64,000 bases of DNA from Clostridiales bacterium. Its GTDB lineage: Bacteria; Bacillota; Clostridia; Saccharofermentanales; Saccharofermentanaceae. The position numbers were made by a program, and so were the translations under genes. The DNA lies in NCBI GenBank assembly GCA_017551625.1, contig JAFZLF010000005.1, forward strand, positions 62,001 through 126,000, in the 5' to 3' direction. Below are positions 30,674 to 51,107 of this stretch, one piece after another; position 1 is the first letter of the stretch; each line of letters begins with the position of its first letter. The notes beneath the pieces are model-generated. The model searched no databases. It saw nothing but the letters and a program-made list of their open reading frames with translations, and was not told the origin of the DNA.

Positions 30674-32290
30674 TCAAGCGTTCTCGTTATTCTGATACTG
30701 TTCCAGAAATCGCAGCGCGACTTCCTTTTTCTTATGCGGATGCAGGTCATTGTGCTGACCGAGATCATATGTCGGGATCAGAAAACAACCCGGAATCTCG
30801 TGTACGACGGAACGCTGTACTTCTCTTACCGCGTCAAAAGGATCAGACTCATATACCGGACCGTCGCCGAGCCAGTATGTGACCTCCGCCATGTAAAACG
30901 GTGTTTCCCGTCCGAAACACTCTCTCCACTCAGCGACCATGTTCTTAAGAAGATCCGCATAGTGCTGCGGATACTCACAGTTTGACTCTCCCTGATAGAA
31001 CAACATCGCCCTGCATCGTGTACCGGAAAGCGGATAGATCATCGAATTATACAGAGCTGTCGGAGCCCAGTTGAAGAAAGTCGGACCAGTCAGAGCTTCA
31101 GATCTTGCGCCTTCCCGCATCTTCCATCTTCCTTCCAGAGAAATCTCTTCTTCATTTCGTTTCAGGCAGTACGGACATTCCGGAACTGCGCCGCCGATAT
31201 TACCATCTATGCCCAGACGGACGGTGATGGTATTTTCACCTTCGTGAAGGATACCGGGCTTTAGGAAATACCGTCTTGGCGGATACTTAAATCCATACTC
31301 CCCTACCTTTTGTCCGTTAACAAATGTCGTATCCGAGTCGATGAGTGTACCGAGCCGGAGTTCGACCGTATCTTCCAACCATGAAGCAGGCACTGCGATC
31401 GTCTTTTGCAGCCAGATGCTTCCTTTATAGTCTTCATAAGGGGTTCCCATAAAGGTAGATGGCATATCAAATGAAGAATATTCCTCTGTTTCAGGCCATT
31501 TATCCTCCCATCCTCCTGATAATCCGGGATCACGTTTATCCAGATCCTTGTGCCATGCATCCTGTCTTTTCATATCCTCAGCCTGCGTCCCGGATACGAA
31601 ATCTTCATTGCGGTTCTGGCTGAGTTTTTCCTTGTAGCACCACAGACATGCTTTACTCTTATCGTTATTACAGTATCCGGAGCCGTGATCTGTAGCTGCG
31701 ATCATCTCATAGGTAGAAATAAGATTCTCTTCGCTCATCAGACTCTCGACAGGCGCTCCACCGACCGCAGTCTGAATCAATCCGACCGGTATACCGTCCG
31801 AGAGGAACTTATACTTGGCAAAGTAAAAACCGATCGCGCTGAACCCGAAGATATGCTCTTGATCACAATTGACCCAGGATCCACCGGTAAGCATCTCTGC
31901 TTTCTTTCCGAAGAGAGGAATCTTCGGGACCTCAAATTGTCGGATCATGGGATAATCCGCGGATATGATCTCATCATAATGGTAATCAGTCGTCCATATC
32001 GTAGGAAGTTCCATGTTTGACTGGCCACCGAGAATATAGACATCTCCGAAAAGGATATCCCTGATAGTGATAGTATCTTTTTCTGAAGAGATCTTGAGCG
32101 TGTGAGGCCCGCCTGCGGGATGCGGAGGAAGTAAAAGACTCCAGCAGTTTTCGCGCCGGATATTTACGGGGATCGGCTCACCGTCCCACAAGGCCGTAAT
32201 CGTCTCGCTCCCATCCCGAAAACCGGATAACGTGTTTTCCACATCTCTTTGCAGAATCATGCCATCACTGATAATACTTGAAATCTTCAT
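30674..32290 (-). CDS. SASA/GDSL-type carbohydrate esterase (sialate O-acetylesterase family)
   Basis: A 538-residue serine esterase of the SGNH fold. The nucleophile is in GGQSNMELPT, the Asn/Gly block is FYQGESNCEYP and the catalytic Asp/His pair is in HNDLHPHKK near the C-terminus. A beta-sandwich insertion (about residues 265-370, with WEDTVELRLGTL-type and NTITVRLGIDG strands) sits between the core halves, as in SIAE family enzymes. No signal peptide, so it is intracellular. Beside sugar-uptake genes it more likely removes acetyl groups from imported xylan or pectin oligosaccharides than from sialic acid (inference). Confidence 0.85.
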   Translation of the reverse strand: MKISSIISDGMILQRDVENTLSGFRDGSETITALWDGEPIPVNIRRENCWSLLLPPHPAGGPHTLKISSEKDTITIRDILFGDVYILGGQSNMELPTIWTTDYHYDEIISADYPMIRQFEVPKIPLFGKKAEMLTGGSWVNCDQEHIFGFSAIGFYFAKYKFLSDGIPVGLIQTAVGGAPVESLMSEENLISTYEMIAATDHGSGYCNNDKSKACLWCYKEKLSQNRNEDFVSGTQAEDMKRQDAWHKDLDKRDPGLSGGWEDKWPETEEYSSFDMPSTFMGTPYEDYKGSIWLQKTIAVPASWLEDTVELRLGTLIDSDTTFVNGQKVGEYGFKYPPRRYFLKPGILHEGENTITVRLGIDGNIGGAVPECPYCLKRNEEEISLEGRWKMREGARSEALTGPTFFNWAPTALYNSMIYPLSGTRCRAMLFYQGESNCEYPQHYADLLKNMVAEWRECFGRETPFYMAEVTYWLGDGPVYESDPFDAVREVQRSVVHEIPGCFLIPTYDLGQHNDLHPHKKKEVALRFLEQYQNNENA

Positions 32291-33802: not shown

Positions 33803-34705
33803 TTACTCTTTTACGCCACCGATCGTAAGACCCGTTACAAAGTATCTCTGTAAGAACGGATACAAGCAGATGATCGGAAGCATGGTTGCGATTGTAGCTG
33901 CAGCACGTACCTGGATCTCAGTAGTCATGTTCGCTGTCTTACCGGAGCTATCCGCTGTCGGATTGAGCTGCGTAAGGCTGCTTAAGAGTTTCTGGAGCTC
34001 GTACTGCAAAGTGGTGTTCTGTGGCTTCAGACGATTGTAGATCATCGCGTCGAACCAGGAGTTCCAGTGATACACGGCAACAAAGAGGAATACTGTCGCA
34101 TATACCGGTTTGCAAAGAGGAGAAATGATCCTTGCAAAGATCGTCATATGACCTGCGCCATCAAGCTGCGCAGACTCCTCATAAGAATCCGGCAGAGATG
34201 ACATATACGTACGAAGCACGAGAATGTTAAATGCACTTACCAGACCGGGAATGATATAGACCCAGAATGTACCGGTGAGATGAAGCTTGGTCATGAGGAT
34301 AACCGAAGGAATCAGACCACCGTTTGCATACATCGTGATTACCCAGAACAGCGAAAGGCTTCTTTTGAAGATGAAGTTTCTTCTGGAGATAACGAATGCA
34401 AGAAGTGCATTGGCAGCCAGAGAAAGTACCGAAGCCAGGAACGTACGGGAGACTGTAACGATCAGACCCTGACGGAAACCGGTCATCTCAAAAATGATCT
34501 TCTTATACGCAGAAGTAGTGAACTTTCTCGGCACAAGGTGAACGTTCTTGAGAATGGCTTCGGAGCCATCCGTAAAGGAGTAGGCAAGTGTATTGAGAAC
34601 CGGGTAAAGGGTCACGCAACAGAACAATACGAGGAAAGTCGTGTTGCAGATAACAAACGCCCAATCCCATCCGGACATTTTTGATTTTGTTAATTTCTTA
34701 AACAT
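33803..34705 (-). CDS. Carbohydrate ABC transporter permease (YtcP/LplC type)
   Basis: A 300-residue inner-membrane permease with six predicted helices. The ABC-ATPase docking loop is EESAQLDGAGHMTIFARIISPLCKP (EAA motif). The sequence FVTGLTIGGVKE at the C-terminus is characteristic of this group. It pairs with the LplB-type permease 13 bases upstream. As usual for CUT1 systems of this type, no ATPase is encoded nearby; a shared MsmK-like ATPase elsewhere is presumed. Confidence 0.93.
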   Translation of the reverse strand: MFKKLTKSKMSGWDWAFVICNTTFLVLFCCVTLYPVLNTLAYSFTDGSEAILKNVHLVPRKFTTSAYKKIIFEMTGFRQGLIVTVSRTFLASVLSLAANALLAFVISRRNFIFKRSLSLFWVITMYANGGLIPSVILMTKLHLTGTFWVYIIPGLVSAFNILVLRTYMSSLPDSYEESAQLDGAGHMTIFARIISPLCKPVYATVFLFVAVYHWNSWFDAMIYNRLKPQNTTLQYELQKLLSSLTQLNPTADSSGKTANMTTEIQVRAAATIATMLPIICLYPFLQRYFVTGLTIGGVKE

Positions 34706-34718
34706 GCACGCACCCTCC

Positions 34719-35657
34719 TTAGAACAGTCGCTCTTCTCCTGCCCGCTTCGCTATGAAGTTGAACAGGAAGATCAGGATCATCGCGATGAAAGTCTTGAAG
34801 ATACCTGCAGCAGTACCAAGAGAGAAGTTGGCCATACCATAATTCAGAACGTAGATATCGATCGTCTCCGATACCGGCTTCAGAACACCGAGACCGAGGA
34901 GATACTGAACTTCGAATCCCGCATTAAGCACGTTACCAATATTCATGATCAACAGGATGATAATCGTAGAGCGGATACCCGGAAGTGTGATATGCTTGAT
35001 TTTTTGCCATCTTCCTGCACCATCCATCGCGGCTGCTTCATAAAGCGAAGGATCGATAGATGTAATAGTCGCGAGATAGATGATCGCATTCCAACCTGTT
35101 TCCTTCCAAACATTCGAGATAGCCACGATCGGCCAGAAATACTTCGTATGCATGAAGTAACTGATTGGTTCTTTAATAATATGCAGACCCTGCAGTAATT
35201 CGTTGATCATGCCCTTTGTGGCGAAAGCATCGCGGACGATACTGGTAACCACGATCCAGGACAGGAAGTGCGGGAGATAGGAGATCGTCTGTACGATCTT
35301 TTTACCCATCACATTACGGACTTCACTAAGAAGGATAGCAAAACCGATCGCCGTAACAGTAGTAGCAACGAGGTTGATGACACCCATTCCCAGAGTGTTA
35401 CGCAGGTCGCGGAGGAATGTTTTATCGTCAAAAAGAAATTTGAACCATTTAAATCCTACAAACTGAGACCCGAAAATACCATCTTTCAGCTTATAGTTTT
35501 GAAACGCCATTATCCAACCGAATAACGGCAGATAGTAAAAGATAATACCATAGACAACATACAAGCCGGCAACAATAAGAAGTACGCGCTGACGCTTGAC
35601 TTCGGCTTTGTTGAGTTTACTCTTCAGAGCGGGAGCATCTTTTTCAATTGTGCTCAT
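34719..35657 (-). CDS. Carbohydrate ABC transporter permease (LplB type)
   Basis: A 312-residue permease with about six helices; the EAA loop is YEAAAMDGAGRWQKIKHITLPGI. The N-terminus carries a charged cytoplasmic stretch of about 28 residues before the first helix (VLLIVAGLYVVYGIIFYYL). It is the second gene of the importer operon, downstream of a stem-loop that separates it from the binding-protein gene. Confidence 0.94.
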   Translation of the reverse strand: MSTIEKDAPALKSKLNKAEVKRQRVLLIVAGLYVVYGIIFYYLPLFGWIMAFQNYKLKDGIFGSQFVGFKWFKFLFDDKTFLRDLRNTLGMGVINLVATTVTAIGFAILLSEVRNVMGKKIVQTISYLPHFLSWIVVTSIVRDAFATKGMINELLQGLHIIKEPISYFMHTKYFWPIVAISNVWKETGWNAIIYLATITSIDPSLYEAAAMDGAGRWQKIKHITLPGIRSTIIILLIMNIGNVLNAGFEVQYLLGLGVLKPVSETIDIYVLNYGMANFSLGTAAGIFKTFIAMILIFLFNFIAKRAGEERLF

Positions 35658-35683
35658 TATTTGCCTCCCTTAAACCTAGTAAT

Positions 35684-35715
35684 GGCAACCACAGTTATAT
35701 ATAACCGTGGTTGCC
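35684..35715 (-). promoter_or_regulatory. Intercistronic stem-loop between binding protein and permeases
   Basis: A perfect GGCAACCAC / GTGGTTGCC stem extended by GTTATATATAAC, without a following U-run. In position and form it matches the stabilising or attenuating hairpins that let binding protein be made in excess over permeases. Confidence 0.7.
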
Positions 35716-35744
35716 ACCACAGGATGATTTATGTCAGTTGAACA

Positions 35745-37409
35745 TTACTTGCCGAGCGCTGCGCGACGATCAAGTTCTTTCTGCATTTCTGCGAGGAAGA
35801 GTTCCGGCTTGCACTCTGCATAAGCGGCCTGGTAAGCTGCCCAGTCAGATTCGAAGTCCTTGGAAGTAATAACTACCGGGAGCCATTCGTGCTTGCAGTC
35901 ACCCATCTTCAGCCAAGCGGCACCGTAATCCGTTGTGGAATCCATGTCGTTGGAGTGGGAGTACATCGGATACCAGAAGCCGAGCTGTGTGATGTGCTCA
36001 GATCTGAGGAAGTCACCATAAGAGGTGTATCCATAAGCATCAAATGCCTTCTTCAGCGGTTCAGAAAGTGTAGCGAAGAACTCGGATTCCTGATCCTCAG
36101 GCTTCATAGCGTTCTTGCCGTCACGGTGTGTACCACCCCACTGCGGGAGGTAAGAATAGTTGCAGACGTGCTTTGCTCTGAAAGCATCATTCTGCCAGTT
36201 CGCTCTCATTTCTTCTGTTCTGTAGTACAGACCATTCTCGTCTACGAGATAGTCAACATCCTTAACACCCCAGAAACGGAGGTCATGGATTTCCTGATCC
36301 AGCATCTGGTTGAGGAACTTAAAGGCCTTATCAGCGTCATTGCACTTTGTGGTTACAGCGATACCGGAAGATACGTTCGGTACGTCTGCATAAGCGTGCC
36401 ACTGGTTCTTTGTCTGGCCTTTTTCAGCTACGAGTCCGAGCGGAACATAGTTGTAACCAAGCTCTTTGTAACCCTTGTCGATGAATGTGTTGTTGATCTG
36501 AGCGAAGTCCCAGTTCTGGTCGCACATACCAAGAACAGCACCGGAAGCCAGCTTAGCAATGTATGTGTCATAGTCCATCGTAGCGAACTCAGGATCCATG
36601 ATGCCTGCATTGTAAACTTCATTCAGCTTCTTGAAGTACATCTTAGCTGTAGGTGTGACGTTGTAGTCTTCGATCTTCGGGTTGTCCGGGTCGTCAAGGT
36701 TAACGATTACGGAACCGTCGTTCGGATAACCATCGAGGAACTCAGGAGCATTCTCAACGCAGAAGTATCTCCAGCCTTCGCAAAGAGCGGTATAAGGAAT
36801 AACCTCAACGCCGTCTGCGTTTACCGGGTTAGCTTTTGCATAGCTGTCGAGAAGGTCAAAATACTCGTCGAGAGTTTCGATGATCGGATAGCCTGCCCAC
36901 TCAAGAACACGAACCTGTACCCAGAAAGCCTCGTCGTTGTGACCTCTGGACTTCGGCTCACCGTAGGTCTTACCGAAAACGTTTGCCCAGTAGATGTGTC
37001 CATCAGCCTGGCGGAAGAGCTCCCACTGCTTGTCGGAGAACATTTCCTTCAGGTTCTTGTACTCATCCTTAGCAAGATAGTCGTCCCAAGCAACCAGCAT
37101 ACCAGCCTCAGCCAGCATCTTGGAGCCGTTACCACCATCGATCAGGTCCGGCAGATCGTTAGAAGCGATCATCGTACCTACTGCAGACGCAACGTCCTGA
37201 GACGTATTCCAGGATTCCTTAAGTCTTACACCCGTCTTCTTAGCGAGTTCTTCCTGGATCTCGTTGCCTTCGTTCAGCTCTTTACCAGCCATGAAAGCGA
37301 TCATTGTCCAGTCGGAAATCGACTCGCTCTTCTTTTTTGCACAGCCGGCAAATGCACCAACAGAAAGTGTACAAGCCAAAGCAAGTGCAATAATCTTCTT
37401 TGATTTCAT
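35745..37409 (-). CDS. ABC-transporter substrate-binding lipoprotein
   Basis: A 554-residue extracellular solute-binding protein of the LplA/YtcQ kind. The lipobox is F-A-G-C (Cys23). After a short spacer the binding domain begins (GKELNEGNEIQEELAKKTGV) and is aromatic-rich, as in oligosaccharide binders. It heads the importer operon with both permeases and is paralogous to the 601-residue protein at 26105-27910. Strong GGAGGTTAC site upstream. The substrate is inferred from context (arabinose-containing oligosaccharides) and not proven. Confidence 0.94.
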   Translation of the reverse strand: MKSKKIIALALACTLSVGAFAGCAKKKSESISDWTMIAFMAGKELNEGNEIQEELAKKTGVRLKESWNTSQDVASAVGTMIASNDLPDLIDGGNGSKMLAEAGMLVAWDDYLAKDEYKNLKEMFSDKQWELFRQADGHIYWANVFGKTYGEPKSRGHNDEAFWVQVRVLEWAGYPIIETLDEYFDLLDSYAKANPVNADGVEVIPYTALCEGWRYFCVENAPEFLDGYPNDGSVIVNLDDPDNPKIEDYNVTPTAKMYFKKLNEVYNAGIMDPEFATMDYDTYIAKLASGAVLGMCDQNWDFAQINNTFIDKGYKELGYNYVPLGLVAEKGQTKNQWHAYADVPNVSSGIAVTTKCNDADKAFKFLNQMLDQEIHDLRFWGVKDVDYLVDENGLYYRTEEMRANWQNDAFRAKHVCNYSYLPQWGGTHRDGKNAMKPEDQESEFFATLSEPLKKAFDAYGYTSYGDFLRSEHITQLGFWYPMYSHSNDMDSTTDYGAAWLKMGDCKHEWLPVVITSKDFESDWAAYQAAYAECKPELFLAEMQKELDRRAALGK

Positions 37410-37593: not shown

Positions 37594-39192
37594 TTATTCT
37601 TTTGACATGGCGTGTGTCTTTCTATACTTTGACGGGGTACACCCTATTGTTTCGATAAACTTTCGGATGAAATAGTCACAATCCTTATATCCGACATCCG
37701 CCGCGATCTGGTTGATCTTCTTATTTGTATTCACTAATTGTCTGGCTGCTTCATTGATCCTGTAAGTTGTCAGGTAATCTTTGAAGGACTGCTTATATTT
37801 CTTCCGGAAGATCTGTCCGAGATAAGAACTGTTGATGAAGTACTTCTCCCCCAGATTCCGAAGGCTGATATTCTCGGCATAATGATCTCGGATCTCCGCT
37901 TCGATGCTGGCCAGGATCCCGCGTGAGACATTCTTTCTCAGCCCATTGAGATATTCGGCATATTCGATGGCAAATCTCTCCATGTGCTGACGAGAACCTC
38001 GCTTAAAAGAGTCCTCAAAAGACTTTTCGGAGATATACTGGATGACTTCTTCCTGATTGATGTTGTCATCCTGCTCGGAGGCCAAGTGGATCAGCTGGAA
38101 TAGTAGATAGTTGATATTCAGGTCGATGACGTGGCTGTTCGCTCCGGTCGAATTCATCTCCTCATAGAGTGCAAACACAGCTTTGCGGATGGCTTCTTCA
38201 TTATTCGACTGGATGGATGAGATGACCTCATCGAGACTGCTCTTGCATAGTACAATACCGCTCTGACCGAACTGGATGTCCTCCTCATAAAAATACAGAT
38301 TCTTCTGCATATGGAAGCCGATAATACTGCTGATCCTGATGCAGGAACTGTAAGACTTAGAAAGAGAGGACACATCCTGAACAGTCTTGCCGCACATGAT
38401 ACGCACCGGCTTCGGGAAGAGAACTTCAAGTTTTTTGATAAACATCTCGAAGAATTCTCTCTCCGACATATCTCTTCTCGTAGCCATATTCTCACAATAG
38501 ATGAAACCGACGTCATAATTATCCTTATCATAAGAAACATCAAAGATAAAATGACTGGCGTTTTCTTTGAGGAGCTCCTTGCAGGCGAGAAACATCTGCT
38601 TTTGCAGCATACGCAGATCATAATCGTCTTCCTCATCCGAACCGGTCTCGGTCACCATCTCGATATCCACGAAACGGATCCCGCCCGTGAGCTGTAGATG
38701 ATTCGTGACATAATCGATATTGCTGTCATCAAATTTTCCCTTGATGATCGACATCAGATTGGTCTCGAGGAAAGCGTCCTCCATGTTCTTCTGGCTTAAT
38801 CTGTCCTTTTCTTTTTCCTTATTAAGATTTGCCACACGACGGAGAATATCCAGCAGATCTTCTTTGCTTACCGGTTTTAAGATGTAATCCATGCAATTGT
38901 TGCGGATCGCGCGCTGGACATATGAGAACTCATCAAAACCAGTAAGCAGGATAAACTTCGCCTCGGACAGATGCTGACGGTTGATCTCCTCGAGAAGATC
39001 GAGTCCGTTCATAACAGGCATCTGAATGTCCGAGATGATCAGATCGATCTTATGGTCGGAAAGATAATCCAGTGCTTCTTTGCCGTTACTCATAAGCGCA
39101 TCGATCTCAAACCCTTCACTGTTCCAATCGATAAGAAACTGGAGTCCCTGAAGGATATAAGGTTCGTCATCGACGATCATTACTTTTAACAT
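37594..39192 (-). CDS. YesN-type response regulator with AraC DNA-binding domain
   Basis: A 532-residue regulator: receiver domain (phospho-acceptor Asp in DLIISDIQMPVMNG, residue about 55; Lys in YILKPVSKED), a central helical region of about 280 residues, and a C-terminal double helix-turn-helix of the AraC class (LGQIFRKKYKQSFKDYLTTY, IAADVGYKDCDYFIRKF). Its partner kinase is the upstream gene (16 bases). It lies beside the importer operon it most likely controls. Confidence 0.95.
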   Translation of the reverse strand: MLKVMIVDDEPYILQGLQFLIDWNSEGFEIDALMSNGKEALDYLSDHKIDLIISDIQMPVMNGLDLLEEINRQHLSEAKFILLTGFDEFSYVQRAIRNNCMDYILKPVSKEDLLDILRRVANLNKEKEKDRLSQKNMEDAFLETNLMSIIKGKFDDSNIDYVTNHLQLTGGIRFVDIEMVTETGSDEEDDYDLRMLQKQMFLACKELLKENASHFIFDVSYDKDNYDVGFIYCENMATRRDMSEREFFEMFIKKLEVLFPKPVRIMCGKTVQDVSSLSKSYSSCIRISSIIGFHMQKNLYFYEEDIQFGQSGIVLCKSSLDEVISSIQSNNEEAIRKAVFALYEEMNSTGANSHVIDLNINYLLFQLIHLASEQDDNINQEEVIQYISEKSFEDSFKRGSRQHMERFAIEYAEYLNGLRKNVSRGILASIEAEIRDHYAENISLRNLGEKYFINSSYLGQIFRKKYKQSFKDYLTTYRINEAARQLVNTNKKINQIAADVGYKDCDYFIRKFIETIGCTPSKYRKTHAMSKE

Positions 39193-39207
39193 AGTCTCTC
39201 CCCCTCT

Positions 39208-40974
39208 TTACTCGCTCTTACGAAGTTTGTCCATAGGTATACGTATCAGGACACAAACGCCGACGCCCACTTCACTGTCGATACTGAATCTTACATTTTC
39301 ATCCGTTTGGATCTTGAGTCTCAGACACGCGTTGAGTATCCCGACATGTTTCTTTCCTTTAATCATATCGATACTGACTGCATTGATGCTGTTAAGCAGC
39401 TCCTTTATTTCTTCTTCACTCATTCCCCCGCCTGTATCTTCTACTTCCATACACAGATCATTTTCCTGCTTATAGACCCGAACGAAGATCCAGCCGGCCG
39501 ATGATTTGGATTCGATCCCATGTACACAAGCATTCTCGACAAAGGTAACCAGTGTGAGTTTCGGTATCAGATAATTTTCACAGTCTTTCTCGACATCGAT
39601 GTGGAAAGAAAGACGGTCGCCGAACCGATAGCTCTGCAGGTACAGATAAGCCTCTATCGACTCGGACTCCTTCTTGATCGTAACAAGATCATTCCCCCAC
39701 TCGACATTCTGTCTGGTCATGACTGCCAGTTTTTCGACCATTTCTGCCGTTTCTTCCTCTCCTTTCAGGATGCTGTGCATGCGGATGCTCTCGAGCGAAT
39801 TGAAAAGGAAATGCGGGTTGATCTGACTCTGAAGAGCCAGGAGTTCGGCATTCTTTCGGAGAAGGTCCGTCTCCTGCTCGCGGAGTTTATCTTTATAGAG
39901 TGTATTGATGAGGCTTTGATTGACTGAAACGATATTGTTATAGTTTTCCATGAGCATCGATATCTCATCACTTCCTTCTACGGTTGAGATCGGCTGGAAT
40001 TTATCGGCCTGATCGCCGTTAAAGGCCGTCTCCAGTTTCAGGATACGCGAAGAGAGAGATTTCTCGATCGTTTTCATGAGCAGGATCGGAACGATCAACG
40101 TAAATACCAGAAGAATGACGATGATCCATAGCTTAGACATAATGATTGAACTGATTAGGAGTTCGTCGCTGAAAACATATACATCCAGATCCGTGCCGAA
40201 AGCCGAGTACACTTTATGCACTTCGAACTTATGCTCCTTCTCCACCTTAGCGATATCGATATTCTGAACATCTTCACCGAATCTTGCGAAAACTACATAA
40301 TTCCCATTACAGATATACATCGGGTATTCAGAGGAGAAGCGCAGAAGCTGGCTGCGGAGTTCTGAACTATTGATGTCGATTCGCAGGAGTTTTTCACATG
40401 TCGAGTCATAAAGATGCATCTTCCTGACATAATAAAATGTGTTCACTCTTTCTGTAAGAGGATCAGCAGACTCATCGTAGAAGATGATCAGGGCGTCGAG
40501 CCGGTCCATCTCTTTAAACTTCTGATACCAGTCCCCTTTTGCCGCTTTGTACATGTGCTTGAAGTACACACTGTCCGCAATCGACGGGTTATCCACGAAG
40601 ATCGTGACCTGATCCGAACGGGTGGACACGAGAGACTTGAAGAAAGATTTGCTGACGAAATCATAATACTTGATGAAGAAATCACTCTTGCTCTCGAATC
40701 TCTGATCAAGGAAGTGATTGAGTTCTTCATTTTCGCAGATCGCACGGGCAATACGTGCGTTATAGACAACCGTACTTTCGATCGTGGAAATATACTTGTT
40801 AGCTACATTCTCGAGTTCATACATCCTGTTGTTGTATTCTTGCTCATAGATAGAGAAGAATACGATCGCATCTGTCAGAACAAGCGGAATGATAACGCAG
40901 AAGACATACATAATAACGAACTTATTATGCAGTTTCAGGTTATTCAGAAATTTGGTCAAGAGTTTCCGGATCAC
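39208..40974 (-). CDS. YesM-type sensor histidine kinase
   Basis: A 588-residue membrane kinase. Helices near residues 15-35 and 275-297 flank an extracellular sensor domain of about 240 residues. A HAMP-like stretch precedes the histidine kinase domain with the phospho-His in QINPHFLFNSLESIRM, and the ATP-binding part has NACVHGI and DTGGGM. It forms a two-component system with the downstream response regulator. Its ligand is unknown but probably an oligosaccharide bound outside. A TATAAT at 41011-41016 may be its -10 box. Confidence 0.94.
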   Translation of the reverse strand: MIRKLLTKFLNNLKLHNKFVIMYVFCVIIPLVLTDAIVFFSIYEQEYNNRMYELENVANKYISTIESTVVYNARIARAICENEELNHFLDQRFESKSDFFIKYYDFVSKSFFKSLVSTRSDQVTIFVDNPSIADSVYFKHMYKAAKGDWYQKFKEMDRLDALIIFYDESADPLTERVNTFYYVRKMHLYDSTCEKLLRIDINSSELRSQLLRFSSEYPMYICNGNYVVFARFGEDVQNIDIAKVEKEHKFEVHKVYSAFGTDLDVYVFSDELLISSIIMSKLWIIVILLVFTLIVPILLMKTIEKSLSSRILKLETAFNGDQADKFQPISTVEGSDEISMLMENYNNIVSVNQSLINTLYKDKLREQETDLLRKNAELLALQSQINPHFLFNSLESIRMHSILKGEEETAEMVEKLAVMTRQNVEWGNDLVTIKKESESIEAYLYLQSYRFGDRLSFHIDVEKDCENYLIPKLTLVTFVENACVHGIESKSSAGWIFVRVYKQENDLCMEVEDTGGGMSEEEIKELLNSINAVSIDMIKGKKHVGILNACLRLKIQTDENVRFSIDSEVGVGVCVLIRIPMDKLRKSE

Positions 40975-41138: not shown

Positions 41139-42620
41139 TCAGTTAAAAGGATTCTCCGTCTTGTAGAGATCTCCGGCCGGCTTATTGTAGCCGATCTTAC
41201 ACGGGCAGATGCCGAGGAGCTTAAATGTCTCGAACATCAGCTTGCCGTAGTGACCGAAGGCAACGGCGCCGTGGTGCGGGAATCTTCCCTGGATGAGAAC
41301 GTGACGATAGAATCTGGCCATCTCCGGAATCGCGAAGATAGCGATACCACCAAAGGAACGGGTCTTAACCGGGAGGATCTCACCTTCTGCGATGTAGGAA
41401 ACGAGTTCTCCGTCGCTGTTGCACTGCAGACGATAGAACGTGATCGGAGAAGCAGCAATATCGCCCTCGAGAGTACCACGTGTGAAATCCGGATCAGAAC
41501 CGGCAGGCTCAAGAAGTCTGTGCTGGATGAGCTGATACTTGATCGCACGGTCAGAGCACATCTTGCAGGAAGGTGTGTTACCACAGTGGAAGCCCATGAA
41601 AGTATCTGTCAGCTTGTAATCAAACTTGCCCTTGATATCTTCATCATAGATGTACTGCGGTACGGAGTTGTTGATGTCGAGCAGAGTAACTGCATCGCTG
41701 CTGAGGCATACACCGATATACTCGGAAAGCGCGCCGTAGATATCAACTTCGCAGGAAACCGGGATACCGCGGGAAGCCAGACGGCTGTTCACATAGCAAG
41801 GCTCGAAACCGAACTGGGACGGGAATGCCGGCCAGCACTTATCGGCAAATGCCACGTACTTTCTTGCGCCCTTGTGATTCTCTGCCCAGTCGAGAAGAGT
41901 AAGCTCAAACTGTGCCATACGGGCGCTCATCTCAGGATAGTACTTGCCTTCGCCCATTTCCTTCGCCATGTCTTCGCAGACTTCCGGGATACGCGGGTCA
42001 TTCTCATGCTCCTTGTAGGAAACCAGAAGATCCAGCTCGGAGTTCTCTTCGATCTCGACGCCCAGTTCGTAGAGGCCCTTGATCGGAGCGTTACATGCGA
42101 AGAAGTCCTGCGGACGGGGTCCGAATGTGATGATCTTCAGGTTCTTCACACCGATGACAGCACGAGCGATCGGTACGAAATCAGCGATCATAGCAGCGAT
42201 ATCTTCAGCTGTACCGACAGGATATTCAGGAATATATCCGTCAAGATGTCTCATACCGAGGTTGTATGAGCAGTTGAGCATACCACAGTAAGCGTCGCCA
42301 CGGCCATTGACCATGTCTCCGTCACCTTCTGCTGCCGCCACGAACATGCAAGGACCATCGAAATTCTTCGCGATCAGTGTCTCAGGTGTTTCAGGACCGA
42401 AGTTGCCGAGGAAAACAACCAGTGCATTGCACTCCGCCTTCTTTACATCTTCCACTGCCTTGAGCATATCGAGTTCATTCTCAACTGTGACCGGGCACTC
42501 ATAAAGATCACCCTTATAAGCTGCTTTGATAGCGCTTCTTCTCTTCTCGGAGAGCGCGATCGGGAAACAGTCACGAGAAACAGCAACGATACCTAATTTA
42601 ATTTCTGGAATGTTGTTCAT
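41139..42620 (-). CDS. L-fucose/L-arabinose isomerase family protein (probable arabinose isomerase)
   Basis: A 493-residue protein of the fucose isomerase fold family, not of the classical AraA family. Motifs: VVFLGNFGPETPE near residue 70, CEVDIYGALSEYIG with a probable metal-binding Glu, DINNSVP and a C-terminal HHGAVAFGHYG. It is the last gene of an operon with an FGGY kinase, AraD and a GH51 arabinofuranosidase, so converting L-arabinose to L-ribulose is the missing step it most likely fills. No other AraA is in the window. Function is inferred from context. Confidence 0.8.
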   Translation of the reverse strand: MNNIPEIKLGIVAVSRDCFPIALSEKRRSAIKAAYKGDLYECPVTVENELDMLKAVEDVKKAECNALVVFLGNFGPETPETLIAKNFDGPCMFVAAAEGDGDMVNGRGDAYCGMLNCSYNLGMRHLDGYIPEYPVGTAEDIAAMIADFVPIARAVIGVKNLKIITFGPRPQDFFACNAPIKGLYELGVEIEENSELDLLVSYKEHENDPRIPEVCEDMAKEMGEGKYYPEMSARMAQFELTLLDWAENHKGARKYVAFADKCWPAFPSQFGFEPCYVNSRLASRGIPVSCEVDIYGALSEYIGVCLSSDAVTLLDINNSVPQYIYDEDIKGKFDYKLTDTFMGFHCGNTPSCKMCSDRAIKYQLIQHRLLEPAGSDPDFTRGTLEGDIAASPITFYRLQCNSDGELVSYIAEGEILPVKTRSFGGIAIFAIPEMARFYRHVLIQGRFPHHGAVAFGHYGKLMFETFKLLGICPCKIGYNKPAGDLYKTENPFN

Positions 42621-42662: not shown

Positions 42663-43355
42663 TTATTGACCATAATAAGCATTTTTTCCATGTTTTCTAA
42701 AATAATGTTTGTCCTGAAGTTCAGAGGGCGCCGGGAGTACTTCTTTGTTGATGACCTCGGTTCTGTAAGCCATCTTCGCGACCTCTTCGAGTACCACGGC
42801 ATTGTGCACGGCTTCGTGTGCATCCTTGCCCCATGCAAAGGGACCATGGTTCTTACAGAGAACACCGGGTACTGCCTCATAGTCGAGTTTTTCCTTCTCG
42901 AAAGAATCGGCGATAAGGATACCGGTATTGGTCTCATAATCGGCTTCGATCTCATCTTTTGTCAAGCAACGGACACACGGAATGGCCCCATAGAAATAAT
43001 CAGCATGGGTCGTTCCGTAACACGGGATACTTCTTCCGCTCTGTGCCCAGGATGTGGCATATGAAGAATGAGTATGAACGACTCCTCCGATATTCGGGAA
43101 ACGCTTATAAAGGATCAGATGTGTAGGTGTATCCGATGACGGCTTGTACTTCCCTTCTACGCGGTTCCCTTCAAGATCCATGACGACCATATCATCTGCG
43201 GTCATAGTCTCATACGGAACGCCGCTGGGCTTGATGACGAATAGTCCGCTCTCTCGATCGATCGCACTGACATTCCCCCATGTAAACGTAACCAATCCGT
43301 ATTTCGGAAGAAGCATGTTTGCTTCGAAAACTTCTTTTTTCAGTTGTTCTATCAT
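42663..43355 (-). CDS. araD: L-ribulose-5-phosphate 4-epimerase
   Basis: A 230-residue class II aldolase-fold enzyme giving D-xylulose 5-phosphate. Zinc-binding His residues lie in [10 protein letters not shown], with a further His near residue 170 ([17 protein letters not shown]). The substrate motif [10 protein letters not shown] and the YGTTHADYF block are typical of AraD rather than FucA. It is flanked by the kinase (29 bases) and the isomerase (42 bases). Confidence 0.94.
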
Positions 43356-43384: not shown

Positions 43385-44977
43385 TCAGCCCAGACGCTGG
43401 ATCGCGGCCAGTTCGACCGGAAGACCGGAAACATATTTTTTCATGAAAGCATTGAAACCGTCGATATCTTCCTGTGAAGCCATCAGTTCCGTTCCTGTGG
43501 AACCGGCAAAAATAGCGTCATCAAGATAAGATGCCAGTGTCTGTCCGTCTTTCTTCTGCACCATGTAAAGGGCGAGAAGCGCGATGCCCCAGGCACCACC
43601 CTCGCCGGCTGTCTCCATTACACAGACAGGAGAGCCGATGGCCGCGGAGGCGACGGTTTGACCGGCCTTCGGTGTCTTAAAGAAGCCGCCATGTCCATAC
43701 ATTTTCTTTACGGTAACGTTTTCATGGACCGTCAGGATGTCGAGTCCGACCTTAAGCGCGGCCAACGCGGAATATAGATGCATTCTCATAAAATTCGGAA
43801 GCGTGAAAGAATTCTCTGCCGATCTTACAAACAGTGGAGCGCCTTTGGAAAAACCCGTGACCGGTTCGCCGGAGTAATAGTTATAAGAAACCATACCTCC
43901 GCAGTCCTTATCTCCTTCGAGAGCGACGCCATACATCTTCGAGAAAAGTTCGCCACGATCAAAGTCTGCGCCCATGAGTTTTCCTACTTCATCAAAGAGT
44001 TTGACCCATGCATTGATATCAGATGTGCAGTTGTTGCAGTGTACCATTGCAACCGGATCGCCTGTCGGAGTAGTAACCATGTCGATCTCGGTATGGAGAT
44101 TCTTCATATTCTCTTTGAGGACGATCATGGCAAAGACAGAAGTGCCGGCAGAGATATTACCTGTCTCAACCAATACGGAATTGGTCGCCACCATACCTGT
44201 GCCTGCGTCACCTTCCGGCGGGCACATCGGAATACCGGCCTTAAGATCTCCGTCTTTATCAAGAAGTTTCGCGCCTTCTTCAGTAAGTGTTCCGGCATTC
44301 TCGCCAGCGCTCAGGACTTCCGGCAGGATATCGCGGATCTTCCACGGGAAGTTCTTGTCTTCGATCATGGATGAAAACTTATCGAGCATTGCCTCATCAT
44401 AGCTACCGGTCTTCGAATCGATCGGGAACATACCGGAAGCATCACCGACTCCAAGTACTTTGCGTCCGGAAAGCTTGAAGTGAACAAAACCGGCAAGAGT
44501 CGTAAAATGACGGATGGATGGCACGTGTTCCTCCCCGTTTAAGATTGCCTGATAAAGATGCGAGATGCTCCATCTCTGCGGGATGTTGAAGTTAAGCGCC
44601 TCTGTAAGCTTGACAGCTGCATCAGCTGTGATCGTATTTCTCCATGTACGGAATGGAACCAGCAGCGTATCGTTTTCATCAAAAGGAAGATAGCCGTGCA
44701 TCATGGCCGAGAAGCCGATGGCGGCAAAGCTTCTTATGGTAACACCATATTGCTCCTTTACATTCTTCTTCAGATCTGCATAACAATCGGAAAGACCATT
44801 CCAGATCGCTTCTTCCGAGTACGTCCAGATTCCGTCGAGAAGTTCGTTCTCCCATTCGTGACTGCCGGATGCGATCGGATCGCCCTTCTCATCTACAAGT
44901 ACGGCCTTAATACGGGTCGAACCAAACTCAATTCCCAGTACGCTTTTGCCTTCTTCAATTAATTGTTTCCCATCCAT
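43385..44977 (-). CDS. FGGY-family carbohydrate kinase (probable L-ribulokinase)
   Basis: A 530-residue kinase with the FGGY fold: N-terminal phosphate loop GIEFGSTRIKAVLVDEKG, the second part of the active site near PPEGDAGTGMVATNS (catalytic Asp) and the ATP loop YGHGGFFKTPKAGQ. It is not the standard AraB sequence; other FGGY substrates are possible, but its place between araD and GH51 argues for L-ribulose. It starts 9 bases after the small Cys-rich gene. Confidence 0.85.
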   Translation of the reverse strand: MDGKQLIEEGKSVLGIEFGSTRIKAVLVDEKGDPIASGSHEWENELLDGIWTYSEEAIWNGLSDCYADLKKNVKEQYGVTIRSFAAIGFSAMMHGYLPFDENDTLLVPFRTWRNTITADAAVKLTEALNFNIPQRWSISHLYQAILNGEEHVPSIRHFTTLAGFVHFKLSGRKVLGVGDASGMFPIDSKTGSYDEAMLDKFSSMIEDKNFPWKIRDILPEVLSAGENAGTLTEEGAKLLDKDGDLKAGIPMCPPEGDAGTGMVATNSVLVETGNISAGTSVFAMIVLKENMKNLHTEIDMVTTPTGDPVAMVHCNNCTSDINAWVKLFDEVGKLMGADFDRGELFSKMYGVALEGDKDCGGMVSYNYYSGEPVTGFSKGAPLFVRSAENSFTLPNFMRMHLYSALAALKVGLDILTVHENVTVKKMYGHGGFFKTPKAGQTVASAAIGSPVCVMETAGEGGAWGIALLALYMVQKKDGQTLASYLDDAIFAGSTGTELMASQEDIDGFNAFMKKYVSGLPVELAAIQRLG

Positions 44978-44986
44978 AGTAGCACC

Positions 44987-45238
44987 TCACCACTTTTTAT
45001 CGGGGCATCTGCCCTTTTTGATCGCGGCACGTATCTCCACATAGCATCCGCAAGAGAGACACGTTCCACTTAATAACTTATCACATAAACGGCAAATCGA
45101 TAACCGTTCCGCGCAAACTTTTTTCTCCGCGCGGTCCGGTGCCGGGATTCCGTCTATACCGCGCTCGATCATTTGTCTTAATGACTCATCATCCATCTCC
45201 GAAAGAAGACACCTTCGGCAGGGTTTCGGATCACTCAT
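44987..45238 (-). CDS. Small Cys-rich protein (DUF6171-like)
   Basis: An 83-residue protein with paired cysteines: CRRCLL at the N-terminus and C-(x2)-C in [20 protein letters not shown], plus GRCPDKKW at the end, suggesting one or two zinc sites. The pattern matches a small Firmicutes family I know as DUF6171; function unknown. Its ATG overlaps the GH51 stop (ATGA), so it is translationally coupled within the arabinose operon. It has no signal peptide. Confidence 0.8.
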
Positions 45239-46749
45239 TTCAGTTCGACCTCGATGTGTATGACGCTGTTTGCCGGGATCGTAAATGTGATCTTATCCCC
45301 ATTAACCGAAAGAGTATCAAAGGAAAGTGTCTTTACCACGTCAGGAGCTTCAAATGTATTCTTGTCATCCATCTTGCCGGTCAGGATCTCTGCCTTAGCA
45401 GAAGCAATCTCATTTCCGAGAATATCTGTGCAGATTTCATATGACTCCTCGACAGAAAGGTTCGCCAATGTGATGTGATATTTCCCGTCTTTGTCCTTCG
45501 AGCAGGACTCGTGAAGGTTCGGGACCTGATACTCCTCCTGAAGCCCGATTGTTTTCGTGTCCACGAAGCTTCCGATAAGCGTGCCGTCCTGATGGTGCTT
45601 GTACATGTTGAAAACATGATAGGTCGGTGTCTTGACAATCTTCTCGCCTTCGGTAAGGATCACAGCCTGCAGGACATTGACGAGTTGAGCGATATTCGCC
45701 ATCTTCACACGGTCACAGTGCTTGTTGAAGATGTTGAGATTGATGGCCGCGACGAGCGCATCACGCATCGTGTTCTGCTGATAAAGGAAGCCCGGGTTCG
45801 TGCCCTCCTCGACATCGTACCACGTGCCCCATTCGTCTACGATCAGGCCGATCTTGTGATCCGGATCGTAGCGGTCGATGATCGCGCTGTGCTTCGTTAC
45901 CAGTTCTTCCATGAAGAGCGTCTTACTCAGCGTCATATACCATTCTATTTCATTAAACCCGGTCGCTGCGCCTTTCTTCGCCCAGTCATACGGGAGCGTG
46001 TAATAGTGAAGTGAGATCCCATCTATAAATCCGTGCGCGCCGTTCCATGAGCCGGAGAGCTTATGGCACTGACGGAGAACGGTTTCCATCCATTCATAGT
46101 CCTGGGCATTCGGCCCGCAGGCGATCTTGCTGATCTTCTTATCGGGTGCATAGTTTTTCACATAAGATTGGTATTGACGGAACTGATCCGCATAGTATTC
46201 AGGAAGCATATTCCCGCCACATCCCCAGTTCTCGTTGCCGATACCGAAGAAGTCCACTCTCCATGGTTCTTCGTGACCATTCTCTTTTCGCAGTTCAGCC
46301 ATCGGGGATACACCATCAAAAGTCATATACTCGACCCATTCGCTCATTTCCTGTACTGTTCCGGAACCGACGTTACCGTTAATGTAGGTCTTGCATCCGA
46401 GCTGGCGGCACAGTTCCATATATTCATGCGTACCGAAACTGTTATCCTCGACAACACCGCCCCAATTGGTATTGATCATCTTTTTTCTTTTCGATTTCTC
46501 GCCGATACCGTCTTTCCAGTGGTATTCGTCCGCGAAGCAACCGCCCGGCCAGCGCAGGACAGGAAGTTTCAGTTCTTTTAACGCGGAAACGACATCGTTT
46601 CGCATACCGTTCGTATTCGGAATATCGGAATTCTCGCCGACATAAACACCGCCATAGATACAGCGGCCGAGATGCTCGGAAAAGTGTCCCTGCAGTTCAG
46701 GATTGATGTGTCCCAGTTCTTTTTGCGGATCGATAACAAGTTTAAACAT
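45235..46749 (-). CDS. GH51 alpha-L-arabinofuranosidase (intracellular)
   Basis: A 504-residue family 51 glycosidase releasing terminal L-arabinofuranose from arabinan or arabinoxylan oligosaccharides. The acid/base Glu is in [11 protein letters not shown] and the nucleophile Glu in [25 protein letters not shown] is the family's conserved N-terminal block. The start is ATG 46747-46749 behind GAAGGAGC. No signal peptide, so the substrate must be imported. It is the first gene of the arabinose operon. Confidence 0.96.
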
Positions 46750-46772
46750 ATGAGCTCCTTCTGTCATTCTGC

Positions 46773-47003: not shown

Positions 47004-48023
47004 ATGCTATGTATTCATTCCTTAAATGAGGCTGCTGAAGTCTTTAAGGCGCTCAGTACTGAAGCGCGCATCCGCATCATGGAACTGATATACGAGAACA
47101 ACAATCTGAGCATGAATGATCTGGCTAACATGCTCGGCGTGACCAACAGCGCTATTACTCTTCATATCAACAAACTCGAAAGTGCCGGTCTGGTGACGAT
47201 CAAGACCACATCCGGCAAGCGCGGCATCTCGAAGATCATCCTTCCGGTGCATGACCGCATCATTATCGATATGTTTAAGAATTCCAAGGAAAACCCGCTC
47301 CCCTATTACGAGGACAGCATCGGGGTCGGTCAGTTCACTACGTGTGAGATCCATCCGACATGTGGTATCTGTACGGCCAAGGAGATCATCGGTGAACTTG
47401 ATGATCCACGCGTCTTCTCATATCCGGAGCGTTTTAAGGCCGGTATCCTCTGGCTCGGATATGGTTCTCTGACCTATAATCTCCCGAACCGTCTGCGTGC
47501 CGGACAGATCCCGAGAGAGATCCAGATTTCCTTCGAGATTTCTTCGGAATGTCCATCATATAATAACGACTATCCGAGTGACATATACTTCTATATTAAT
47601 GATGTGCCTCTTGGCTCGTGGGTCAGCCCCGGCGATTTTGGCGACAGAAGAGGTCTGATCGCGCCTTCTTGGTGGCCTACGCCACTGAATCAGTATGGTC
47701 TTCTTAAGACGCTGCTGATCAATGAGAAAGGCACATTTATCGATGGTACTCATAAGATCGGGGATACCACACTTGATGATCTTAAACTCGATTATAATTC
47801 CGCGATCAATTTCACACTGGCTGTACCCAAAGATACAGCGAACTGCGGTGGTATGACACTGTTCGGTGAAGATTTCGGTGACTATAGTCAGAACATCACC
47901 ATGAAGATCTACTACATCAACCGTCATGCACCGGCAGATGAGAATGACATCAAGATCTACTACATCAACCATCATGCCTCTTCTTCTGAGGAATCATCGA
48001 TAAAGGAGAAACAGGATGCTTAA
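47004..48023 (+). CDS. ArsR-like winged-helix regulator with large C-terminal domain
   Basis: A 339-residue regulator. Residues about 8-85 form an ArsR-type winged helix (KALSTEARIRIMELIYENN, MNDLANMLGVTNSAITLHIN). The remaining 250 residues (cysteines in TCEIHPTCGICTAKE, then a region rich in Tyr/Asp/Gly such as DYPSDIYFYINDVPLGSWV) have no metal-site pattern of ArsR and look like a ligand-binding, possibly sugar-sensing, beta domain. The tail holds a 48-base tandem duplication (IKIYYINxHA twice). AAAGGAG precedes the ATG. It overlaps the esterase-GH43 gene by 8 bases. Confidence 0.8.
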   Translation: MLCIHSLNEAAEVFKALSTEARIRIMELIYENNNLSMNDLANMLGVTNSAITLHINKLESAGLVTIKTTSGKRGISKIILPVHDRIIIDMFKNSKENPLPYYEDSIGVGQFTTCEIHPTCGICTAKEIIGELDDPRVFSYPERFKAGILWLGYGSLTYNLPNRLRAGQIPREIQISFEISSECPSYNNDYPSDIYFYINDVPLGSWVSPGDFGDRRGLIAPSWWPTPLNQYGLLKTLLINEKGTFIDGTHKIGDTTLDDLKLDYNSAINFTLAVPKDTANCGGMTLFGEDFGDYSQNITMKIYYINRHAPADENDIKIYYINHHASSSEESSIKEKQDA

Positions 48024-50997
48024 GCTTGTCGCAACTGAAAACGGTCTGGTACGTGGTTTCCAGGGCAATAATACAAGGATCTCCGTTTTTAAAGGTATCC
48101 CCTTTGCTGCTCCACCGGTCGGCGAGAACCGCTGGCGTGCGCCTCAGCCATGTGAAAACTGGGAGGGCATACGTGAATGTGGCAAATTCGCCCCGATCTC
48201 TGTGCAGGATCAGCCCGGTGTCGGCACGGATATCTACTGCCGCGAGTGGCACGTGGATAAAGATATCGAGATGGATGAAGATTGCCTGTATCTCAACGTC
48301 TGGACTCCGGCGAACTCTGACAAAGACAATCTTCCCGTTTTTATCTGGTTTTTCGGTGGCGGATTCCAGTGGGGATATCCCCGCGAGATGGAGTTCAATG
48401 GCGAGAATATCGCCAAGCGGGGCGTCATCGTCGTCAGCGTCAATTACCGCCTCGGCGCGATCGGTTTTCTCTCCCACCCTGATCTTATCAAGGAATCTCC
48501 GGATGCTCCGGCAAACTTCGGTACTCTAGACCAGCAGGCCGGTATTAAGTGGGTCATCCGGAATATCGCAAACTTCGGCGGTGACCCGAAGAATATTACC
48601 ATCGCAGGCCAGTCTGCCGGTGGTGGTTCTGTACTCACCCATCTGACATCCGAATCGAGCATAGGTCTCTTCCAGAAAGCGATCGTCTATTCCGGAATCA
48701 TCGAGAGTCCTTATATCAAGGACGGCGTCATCAACCCGAAACCGATCGAGGAAACAAGCAAGATGGGTGAAAGATTCATCGAAAGTCTCGGCGTATCGAC
48801 GATCGAAGAAGCAAGAAAGATTGATGCCGGGATAATCAGAGACAGATATGCGGAATTCCGCGAGAAGAATATGTTCTTCTTCACGCCCTGTATCGACCAT
48901 GTATTTCTAAAGGATGAACCTTTCAAACTGTTGCTTTCAGGTAAGCAGGCCAATGTTCCGATACTGGCCGGTAATACCTATGACGAATTCAAGAGTTTCC
49001 TCGTCGCAGACTCGAAAGAAGATTTTGAGACCAAGGCCGGAGCAATCTTCGGAGATCGTGCTACCCGTTTCTTCTCTTTCCCGGAGAGTTATGAGGTCAT
49101 GGAAGGAAACAAATATGGAGTCGTCCGCGGCATCGAGTGTTCGGTCAAGGCCGCACTCGACAAGACCGATGCCCCCTGCTTCTATTACAGTTTTGAAGTG
49201 GATATTCCCGGCGAAGATAACCCGGGCACTTTCCACTCCGTGGATCTGTGGTTCTTCTTTGAGACGCTGGCTGCGTGCTGGAGACCTTTTGTGGGCCGTC
49301 ACTACGATATCGCAAGAAGAATGACCAACTATATCACTAACTTTATCAAGAACGGGAATCCAAACGGCGAAGATATCACCGGTGAAGCTATGCCAAGGTG
49401 GAACGCCTATTCAAACAGCGACCGAAACGAGATGCATTTCACAGCCGATGGCTGTGTCCCGAAGCTTCAGGATTCTGAATACATCCAGTTCTTCATCGAC
49501 TATCTGACAGATCGTACCCTCGGTAAGCTCGATAACGAATCACGAACAGAGGCAAGCGTTGCGGCTCTGGCTGTACCGCAAAAGAAACAGGCCTTTAATC
49601 CGTATCTGCCTTCCTGGGAATATATCCCGGATGGCGAGCCCTATGTCTTCGGAGACCGGCTCTATATCTACGGTTCACACGACTACTATAACTGTTCCTA
49701 CTTCTGTCCGGGAGATTATGTGAGCTGGTCAGCTCCGGTCAATAATCTCGCAGATTGGAGATATGAAGGCGTTTCCTTCAGGAGAACCGACGATCCTGAT
49801 AATCAGGAAAACAAAGGTTGTCTGTATGCACCCGATATCACAGTCGGACCCGACGGGATCTACTACCTCTTCTACGTACTCGACAATCAGAGTGTCGTCG
49901 CTGTCGCCAAATCGGATAAGCCGCAGGGACCGTTTAAGTTCTATGGCCACGTTCATTATGAAGACGGTACGCTTCTGGGCAAGAAGGAAACAGATGAACC
50001 ACAGTTTGATCCTGGCGTGATCACGATGGGCGATACCACTTATCTGTATACCGGATTCTGCGGCCAGACAGATGCCACTCGTCACGGCGCGATGGTCACC
50101 GTTCTCGATAAAGATATGCTGACCATCAAGAAAGCTCCGGAATTTATCGTTCCGGGAACGATGTATGCGGAAGGAACCACATTCGAAGGGCACGCTTTCT
50201 TCGAGGCGCCTTCTATCCGTGAGAGAAACGGTATTTTCTATTTCGTCTATTCCTCTCAGGTCATGCACGAACTATGCTACGCGACCTCTACGTCCCCGGA
50301 AGGCCCGTTCACATATGGCGGTGTCATCGTCAGTAACTGCGACATCGGTATCGGAACCTACAAAGAGGCAGATAAATCTGCCTGCTACGGTGCGAACAAC
50401 CACGGAAGCATCGTGGAGATCAACGGCGATTGGTATATCTTCTATCACCGTCATACCAATAATACATGGTATTCCAGACAGGGCTGCGCCGAGAAGATCG
50501 AGTTCTCTGAGGACGGTGCGATCAAACAAGTCGAGATCACTTCTTGTGGACTTAACGGCGGTTCTCTCCGGGATACTGACGAGTATCCGTCCTATATCGC
50601 CTGCAATATCTTCTCTGAAAAAGATGAAAAGAAGAATCCGTACGTTGGTCAGCACCGCGTCGCCCGAGTGATCCAGGACGGCCGGGACGGCGATCGTGAT
50701 CCGGCCTATATCTCATGGATCACAGATGGTACGACCATCGGCTTTAAGTACTTCGATATGAAGAATGTCTCCGGCATCCTGCTCCGTGTCCGCGGATATG
50801 GAAACGGCACATTTGAAGTAAGAACTTCGCTTGAAGGCCCTGTTCTTGCTGAACTTCCGGTTACCTTTATGACCGTGTGGGAGAAATACGAGGCCTCCTT
50901 CGCTGAAAAGGTAACGGATCCGGCTGCACCGCTCTTCCTCACCTACCGTGGAGGCGGCGACGTTCAGCTCAGATCATTTAAGTTTATTCACGAATAA
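48016..50997 (+). CDS. Carboxylesterase (type B) - GH43 glycosidase fusion
   Basis: A 993-residue two-enzyme protein. Residues 1-510 are a type B carboxylesterase: oxyanion segment FGGGFQWG, nucleophile Ser200 in AGQSAGGGS, acid near Glu324 in NTYDEF and His407 in GTFHSVDLW. Residues about 525-850 are a GH43 five-bladed propeller: NPYLPSWEYIPDGEPYVFGD with the base region, LYAPDITVGPDG (Asp pKa modulator) and FFEAPSIRERNG (acid Glu). The last 130 residues resemble a beta-sandwich, possibly carbohydrate-binding, module. No signal peptide. It is co-translated with the regulator (8-base overlap, AAAGGAG site). Likely removes acyl groups and arabinose or xylose from the same imported oligosaccharide (inference). 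Confidence 0.9.
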   Translation: MLKLVATENGLVRGFQGNNTRISVFKGIPFAAPPVGENRWRAPQPCENWEGIRECGKFAPISVQDQPGVGTDIYCREWHVDKDIEMDEDCLYLNVWTPANSDKDNLPVFIWFFGGGFQWGYPREMEFNGENIAKRGVIVVSVNYRLGAIGFLSHPDLIKESPDAPANFGTLDQQAGIKWVIRNIANFGGDPKNITIAGQSAGGGSVLTHLTSESSIGLFQKAIVYSGIIESPYIKDGVINPKPIEETSKMGERFIESLGVSTIEEARKIDAGIIRDRYAEFREKNMFFFTPCIDHVFLKDEPFKLLLSGKQANVPILAGNTYDEFKSFLVADSKEDFETKAGAIFGDRATRFFSFPESYEVMEGNKYGVVRGIECSVKAALDKTDAPCFYYSFEVDIPGEDNPGTFHSVDLWFFFETLAACWRPFVGRHYDIARRMTNYITNFIKNGNPNGEDITGEAMPRWNAYSNSDRNEMHFTADGCVPKLQDSEYIQFFIDYLTDRTLGKLDNESRTEASVAALAVPQKKQAFNPYLPSWEYIPDGEPYVFGDRLYIYGSHDYYNCSYFCPGDYVSWSAPVNNLADWRYEGVSFRRTDDPDNQENKGCLYAPDITVGPDGIYYLFYVLDNQSVVAVAKSDKPQGPFKFYGHVHYEDGTLLGKKETDEPQFDPGVITMGDTTYLYTGFCGQTDATRHGAMVTVLDKDMLTIKKAPEFIVPGTMYAEGTTFEGHAFFEAPSIRERNGIFYFVYSSQVMHELCYATSTSPEGPFTYGGVIVSNCDIGIGTYKEADKSACYGANNHGSIVEINGDWYIFYHRHTNNTWYSRQGCAEKIEFSEDGAIKQVEITSCGLNGGSLRDTDEYPSYIACNIFSEKDEKKNPYVGQHRVARVIQDGRDGDRDPAYISWITDGTTIGFKYFDMKNVSGILLRVRGYGNGTFEVRTSLEGPVLAELPVTFMTVWEKYEASFAEKVTDPAAPLFLTYRGGGDVQLRSFKFIHE

Positions 50998-51052
50998 CTC
51001 ACACCTCCGTTATTCGATGCAATAATATTTTTCTACCCCCATCCTCATAGAA

Positions 51053-51080
51053 AAGGGACGGCCCGCAAGGACCGTCCCTT
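51053..51080 (-). terminator. Terminator of the 72-residue protein gene
   Basis: Stem AAGGGACGG / CCGTCCCTT with a 10-base loop; the minus strand continues with TTTTCT. The plus side (TTCTCTGTT) may also end the esterase-GH43 transcript. Confidence 0.8.
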
Positions 51081-51107
51081 CTCTGTTATTCAGTTTTCGA
51101 TCGGAAA

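Follow-up and report, generated by a model that had tools for sequence, protein, structure and literature searches.

Butyrivibrio is known to contain cytosolic enzymes in which an esterase and a glycoside hydrolase share one chain; two such CE-GH fusions, Xsa43H and Xyn10D, were reported in 2015 (PMC5217386). Xsa43H (Bpr_I0301) of Butyrivibrio proteoclasticus B316 is a CE10-GH43 protein of 107.9 kDa with no signal peptide, was detected in the cytosolic proteome, and was proposed to debranch imported xylo-oligosaccharides (PMC5217386). In view of these cytosolic enzymes, the premise of a first-pass annotation of the DNA studied here, that esterase-glycosidase fusions are usually secreted, is weak. 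In the Xua system of Ruminiclostridium cellulolyticum, described in 2024, cytosolic esterases free xylan-derived oligosaccharides of their feruloyl and p-coumaroyl groups (PMC11127375). Genetics and enzymology have shown that its importer-GH51-GH43 operon, which is under two-component control, includes a cytosolic feruloyl/p-coumaroyl esterase and a CE20 acetyl esterase (PMC11127375).

We analyzed a 64,000-nucleotide stretch of DNA (the window) from a gut bacterium of the Clostridiales that carries, on the plus strand, a gene for a predicted cytosolic carboxylesterase-GH43 fusion (48016..50997; 993 aa, identified by ORF and Pfam). The frame lies exactly where it had been annotated and is intact over its 993 codons. 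The frame check showed that the ATG sits only 4 codons past the preceding in-frame stop; a GGAG is found ahead of it, and ATG 48016 is the only plausible start. The N-terminus leaves no space for a signal peptide, and a missed upstream start with one was rejected, since just 4 codons are open upstream. The annotated lack of a signal peptide was borne out, none being seen in the fusion protein or in any relative inspected. The protein probably works inside the cell. Shortly 3' of the fusion stop, at about 51045-51085 of the window, there is a GC-rich inverted repeat (AAGGGACGG...CCGTCCCTT), which is likely to be an intrinsic terminator.

We examined residue conservation by aligning 42 relatives, fused and separate, and scored each residue wherever its module was present. 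Residues 1 to about 505 (48016..49530, plus strand) form a type B carboxylesterase (COesterase) module, assigned by Pfam PF00135 (E 4e-98, 330 bits versus a curated cut-off of 27) and by its fold. The nucleophile Ser200 in the GQSAGG motif (48613..48615), the triad acid Glu324 (48985..48987) and His407 (49234..49236), all on the plus strand, are invariant in 27 of the 27 aligned esterase modules. All three positions proved exact as annotated, including that of Glu324, which had been given as approximate. The oxyanion-hole glycines G114 and G115 are likewise invariant across the aligned esterase modules. According to the profile search, this is the only carboxylesterase over the cut-off in its genome. 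Structure-database comparison showed that the nearest solved relatives of the esterase half are general esterases; they include a polyurethane-degrading enzyme, p-nitrobenzyl esterase, cholinesterases and a fumonisin esterase. Our literature searches turned up no report in which this half, or a close homologue, had been assayed on a sugar ester. In one member of the genus (L046 7971-10892; also L029, G111), the esterase is broken by an in-frame stop and about 29 codons are missing ahead of residue 119; this copy may be a pseudogene or reflect an assembly fault.

Residues 524-993 (49585..50994, plus strand) make up a GH43 of the TerARA type, that is, a beta-propeller with its own C-terminal beta-sandwich (about 880-993), as judged from PF04616 and from the match to PDB 9no3. 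The PF04616 match covers residues 550-835 (E 2e-26, 93.3 bits versus a cut-off of 32.2). Both Pfam domains are thus over their cut-offs in one ORF, in agreement with the annotated union of an esterase and a GH43 domain. No GH43 triad had been given previously. Alignment with 9no3 placed the general base at Asp539 (49630..49632), the pKa-modulating Asp in the FDP motif at Asp665 (50008..50010) and the general acid in the FEAPS motif at Glu730 (50203..50205), all on the plus strand and each invariant in 32/32 aligned sequences. The alignment check that had been suggested, for an absent GH43 acid/base residue, therefore found these residues in place, and a GH43 without its acid/base residue was rejected. 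The C-terminal beta module that had been described does exist, but it is the normal second domain of a TerARA-type GH43 and not a separate added part; an additional C-terminal carbohydrate-binding module was rejected, since the match to TerARA runs the full length of residues 524-993. The title of PDB entry 9no3 states that TerARA cuts both arabinofuranosides and xylosides. A literature search on the name TerARA returned unrelated papers only.

An AlphaFold model of the fusion, built on the alignment of 42 relatives, had a mean pLDDT of 85 and a pTM of 0.58; each half is well modelled, but their mutual placement is not. Model residues 1 to about 508 match type B esterases (Z 36-39), and residues 524-993 match TerARA 9no3 (Z 48.6, rmsd 1.9, 456 residues). 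Residues 513-523, directly before the GH43 half, are of low confidence in the model and resemble a linker. In the fused proteins the linker closes with (x)KKQAFNPYLP, which matches MKKQAFNPYLP, the sequence with which free-standing GH43s begin. The Met at this position is kept in five fused members of the genus (L018, L019, L021, L023, L024), and the window protein has Gln there. An internal start yielding GH43 alone is conceivable in these five. In Treponema (L064) and in L057, a few in-frame codons separate the stop of the esterase gene from the start of the GH43 gene. The matching linker and the Met kept in five fused members suggest that the fusion arose when the stop codon separating two adjacent genes was lost.

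We then considered how widely the two modules occur together. Within the GTDB family of this genome, 56 of 115 genomes, itself included, have the full-length fusion. In the Butyrivibrio group, most sampled genomes (about 50/61) carry a fusion homologous to the window protein; Xsa43H itself was compared by description. The search of databases for the same fusion, which had been proposed earlier, thus showed that it is common in both groups. Since dozens of independent genomes share the same fusion, a chimeric assembly error as its source was rejected. In other family members the two genes are neighbours, with GH43 first (for example G023, G038, G065, G066) or with CE first (G001, G002, G005, G006), and Treponema, Paenibacillus and Oscillospiraceae also hold CE and GH43 as two adjacent genes. 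The module pair is therefore kept in three arrangements: fused, CE then GH43, and GH43 then CE.

The module trees gave different groupings for the two halves. With L122 left out, because a contig edge truncates this fusion, the GH43 halves of the fused proteins form one group (support 89). The esterase halves form no such group (AU p 0.001 to 0.008), in a tree that has long branches. This conflict may be explained by separate fusions or by recombination. The Lachnospiraceae fusions, including those of Butyrivibrio, share about 57-61% identity with the window protein, and their esterase C-terminus and linker are shorter. In the module tree, their esterase halves group with the esterases of GH43-CE split pairs.

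Upstream of the fusion, an ArsR-like winged-helix regulator of 339 aa (47004..48023, plus strand) was identified by Pfam/NCBIfam profile search. Its C-terminal part of about 260 residues matches no known Pfam family and is possibly a sugar-sensing domain. The regulator ends with TAA at 48021-48023 and overlaps the fusion by 8 nt. The annotated co-translation with a regulator fits this overlap, but not as a conserved feature, because roughly half of the loci in the genus lack this regulator here and have GH51 and the fusion as a plain divergent pair. Regulator coupling as a general feature was rejected for this reason; the coupling is lineage-specific.

To the left of the fusion lies a minus-strand cluster. 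It contains a GH51-type alpha-L-arabinofuranosidase (45235..46767; profile search), which from its N-terminus lacks a signal peptide, and an FGGY sugar kinase (43385..44977; Pfam), which scores below every curated NCBIfam equivalog cut-off. These are followed by an L-ribulose-5-phosphate 4-epimerase, AraD (42663..43355), over the cut-off of its NCBIfam subfamily model, and by a sugar isomerase of the fucose-isomerase type (41139..42620; PF02952, 83.4 bits versus a cut-off of 29.3). The isomerase matches no arabinose-specific NCBIfam model; judged by its neighbours, it is probably an arabinose isomerase. A two-component pair (37594..40974) consists of a histidine kinase (39208-40974) and an AraC-type response regulator (37594-39192), both assigned by Pfam. 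The ABC importer (33803..37409) consists of a solute-binding lipoprotein (35745-37409), which has no Pfam match and was recognized by its lipobox and its place beside the permeases, and of two permeases assigned by Pfam (34719-35657 and 33803-34705). A DUF624 protein is also present in the cluster. The SASA-type, CE20-like carbohydrate esterase at 30674..32290 (minus strand; PF03629) has an N-terminus without a signal peptide and resembles the solved carbohydrate esterase Fl8 (PDB 9h4u) and 7kmm (CE20 type); it is probably a second cytosolic deacetylase. The window contains two similar long solute-binding lipoproteins, the one at 35745-37409 and another at 26105-27910 (both minus strand), and the ORFs listed around the latter include no permease pair. 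Elsewhere, the genome encodes a secreted GH10 lipoprotein (L133). A second GH10 xylanase (L134 1330-2532, minus strand, contig C6) has no signal peptide, and this endo-acting enzyme may also work inside the cell.

Subsets of these partners recur in the family: the two-component pair, binding protein, permeases and DUF624 beside CE/GH43; GH43-CE-kinase-AraD; and CE-GH43-GH51. AraD and GH51 are constant neighbours of the fusion within the genus. None of these partners was seen within 8 kb of the distant Lachnospiraceae fusions. The relatives in which CE and GH43 are neighbouring genes, whichever comes first, often have the same importer, two-component, GH51 or AraD-kinase genes next to them, which speaks for a shared role of the two.

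An intact and conserved catalytic set in each half, the lack of an export signal, the kept linkage of the modules and the recurring operon partners were observed directly. We think it likely that the fusion unites two enzymes in one cytosolic protein that carries out the final steps in the use of arabinoxylan-type oligosaccharides and is of the same kind as Xsa43H. Secreted enzymes such as the GH10 lipoprotein would cut xylan, and the binding lipoprotein with the two permeases would import substituted, partly acylated oligosaccharides. Inside the cell, the N-terminal serine esterase would strip the acyl group, which may be acetyl, or feruloyl or p-coumaroyl on arabinose; this choice is read from the neighbouring genes only. 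Using the inverting mechanism of its family, the C-terminal GH43 would then cut the arabinofuranosyl or xylosyl residue so exposed, with GH51 and the CE20-like esterase acting together with it, and the freed arabinose would pass to the isomerase, the kinase and AraD. In this scheme we infer the acyl group, the sugar, the cargo of the importer and any kinetic benefit of the fusion. The predicted cytosolic location, the importer and two esterases without signal peptides suggest that acylated oligosaccharides enter whole. The proposal that acylated arabino-oligosaccharides are imported whole and finished inside accordingly fits the anatomy of the locus and the Xua precedent, but xylo-oligosaccharides are about as likely a substrate as arabino-oligosaccharides, because GH43s of the TerARA type are described as cutting both sugars.

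Other explanations would assign the two halves differently. As a sub-case of the above, the esterase could deacetylate the xylose backbone and the GH43 could act mainly as a beta-xylosidase on the deacetylated xylo-oligosaccharides, arabinose being incidental. The bifunctionality of TerARA-type GH43 and the CE20-like deacetylase in the same cluster agree with this, whereas the arabinose-type AraD and GH51 that constantly accompany the fusion in the genus speak against it; we regard it as a real possibility, somewhat short of even. The esterase half could instead be a generalist or detoxifying carboxylesterase, like its broad-specificity solved relatives, and the two activities would act on different molecules. 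Most type B esterases are not enzymes of carbohydrates, which agrees with this, and CE10 has been withdrawn from CAZy. We consider it unlikely, because Clostridia, Paenibacillus and Treponema have all kept the pair, adjacent or fused and in both gene orders, and many such pairs adjoin arabinose or oligosaccharide-import genes. A role of the esterase domain in binding or dimerisation without catalysis, like that of neuroligins, which share the esterase fold, is very improbable given the invariant Ser, Glu and His and the two oxyanion-hole glycines.

We also offer, tentatively, the idea that the esterase half belongs to a type B lineage dedicated to acylated arabinose or xylose of imported oligosaccharides. 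Such a lineage would amount to a new family of carbohydrate esterases; it would have been coupled repeatedly to a single type of GH43, and the two may have fused on more than one occasion. The esterases of this group, which has no assayed member in the literature found, are candidates for ferulate or acetate release. The results also suggest that in-cell finishing of decorated plant-fibre fragments by an esterase tied to a glycosidase is widespread in rumen Clostridia.

Both the fusion architecture and cytosolic finishing have already been published in other bacteria (Xsa43H, Xua). Likened by description, the window protein shares with Xsa43H an N-terminal esterase and a C-terminal GH43 in one chain without a signal peptide, but it comes from another bacterial family. 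The termite-gut GH43 arabinofuranosidase/xylosidase TerARA (9no3) matches residues 524-993 over its whole length, in both domains, with 44% identity and conserved catalytic residues; unlike the window fusion, it carries no esterase. The type B carboxylesterases p-nitrobenzyl esterase, Est55 and PDB 8wdm share the fold and the Ser-Glu-His triad with the N-terminal half, but they are stand-alone proteins about 30% identical to it and are not known as glycan enzymes. Like Xua, the window cluster has an ABC importer, a two-component pair, cytosolic GH51 and GH43, and two predicted cytosolic esterases, one of them CE20-like. However, the Xua feruloyl esterase XuaH is a separate protein of the CE1 type, whereas the window esterase is of type B and fused; no XuaH-type CE1 feruloyl esterase was found among the scanned cluster proteins, whose esterases are of the type B and SASA types. 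The GH8 and GH39 of Xua have no counterpart seen in the window cluster, and neither a type B carboxylesterase nor a fusion has been reported for Xua. The window cluster would thus be Xua-like in its working, but it is not a member of the Xua system.
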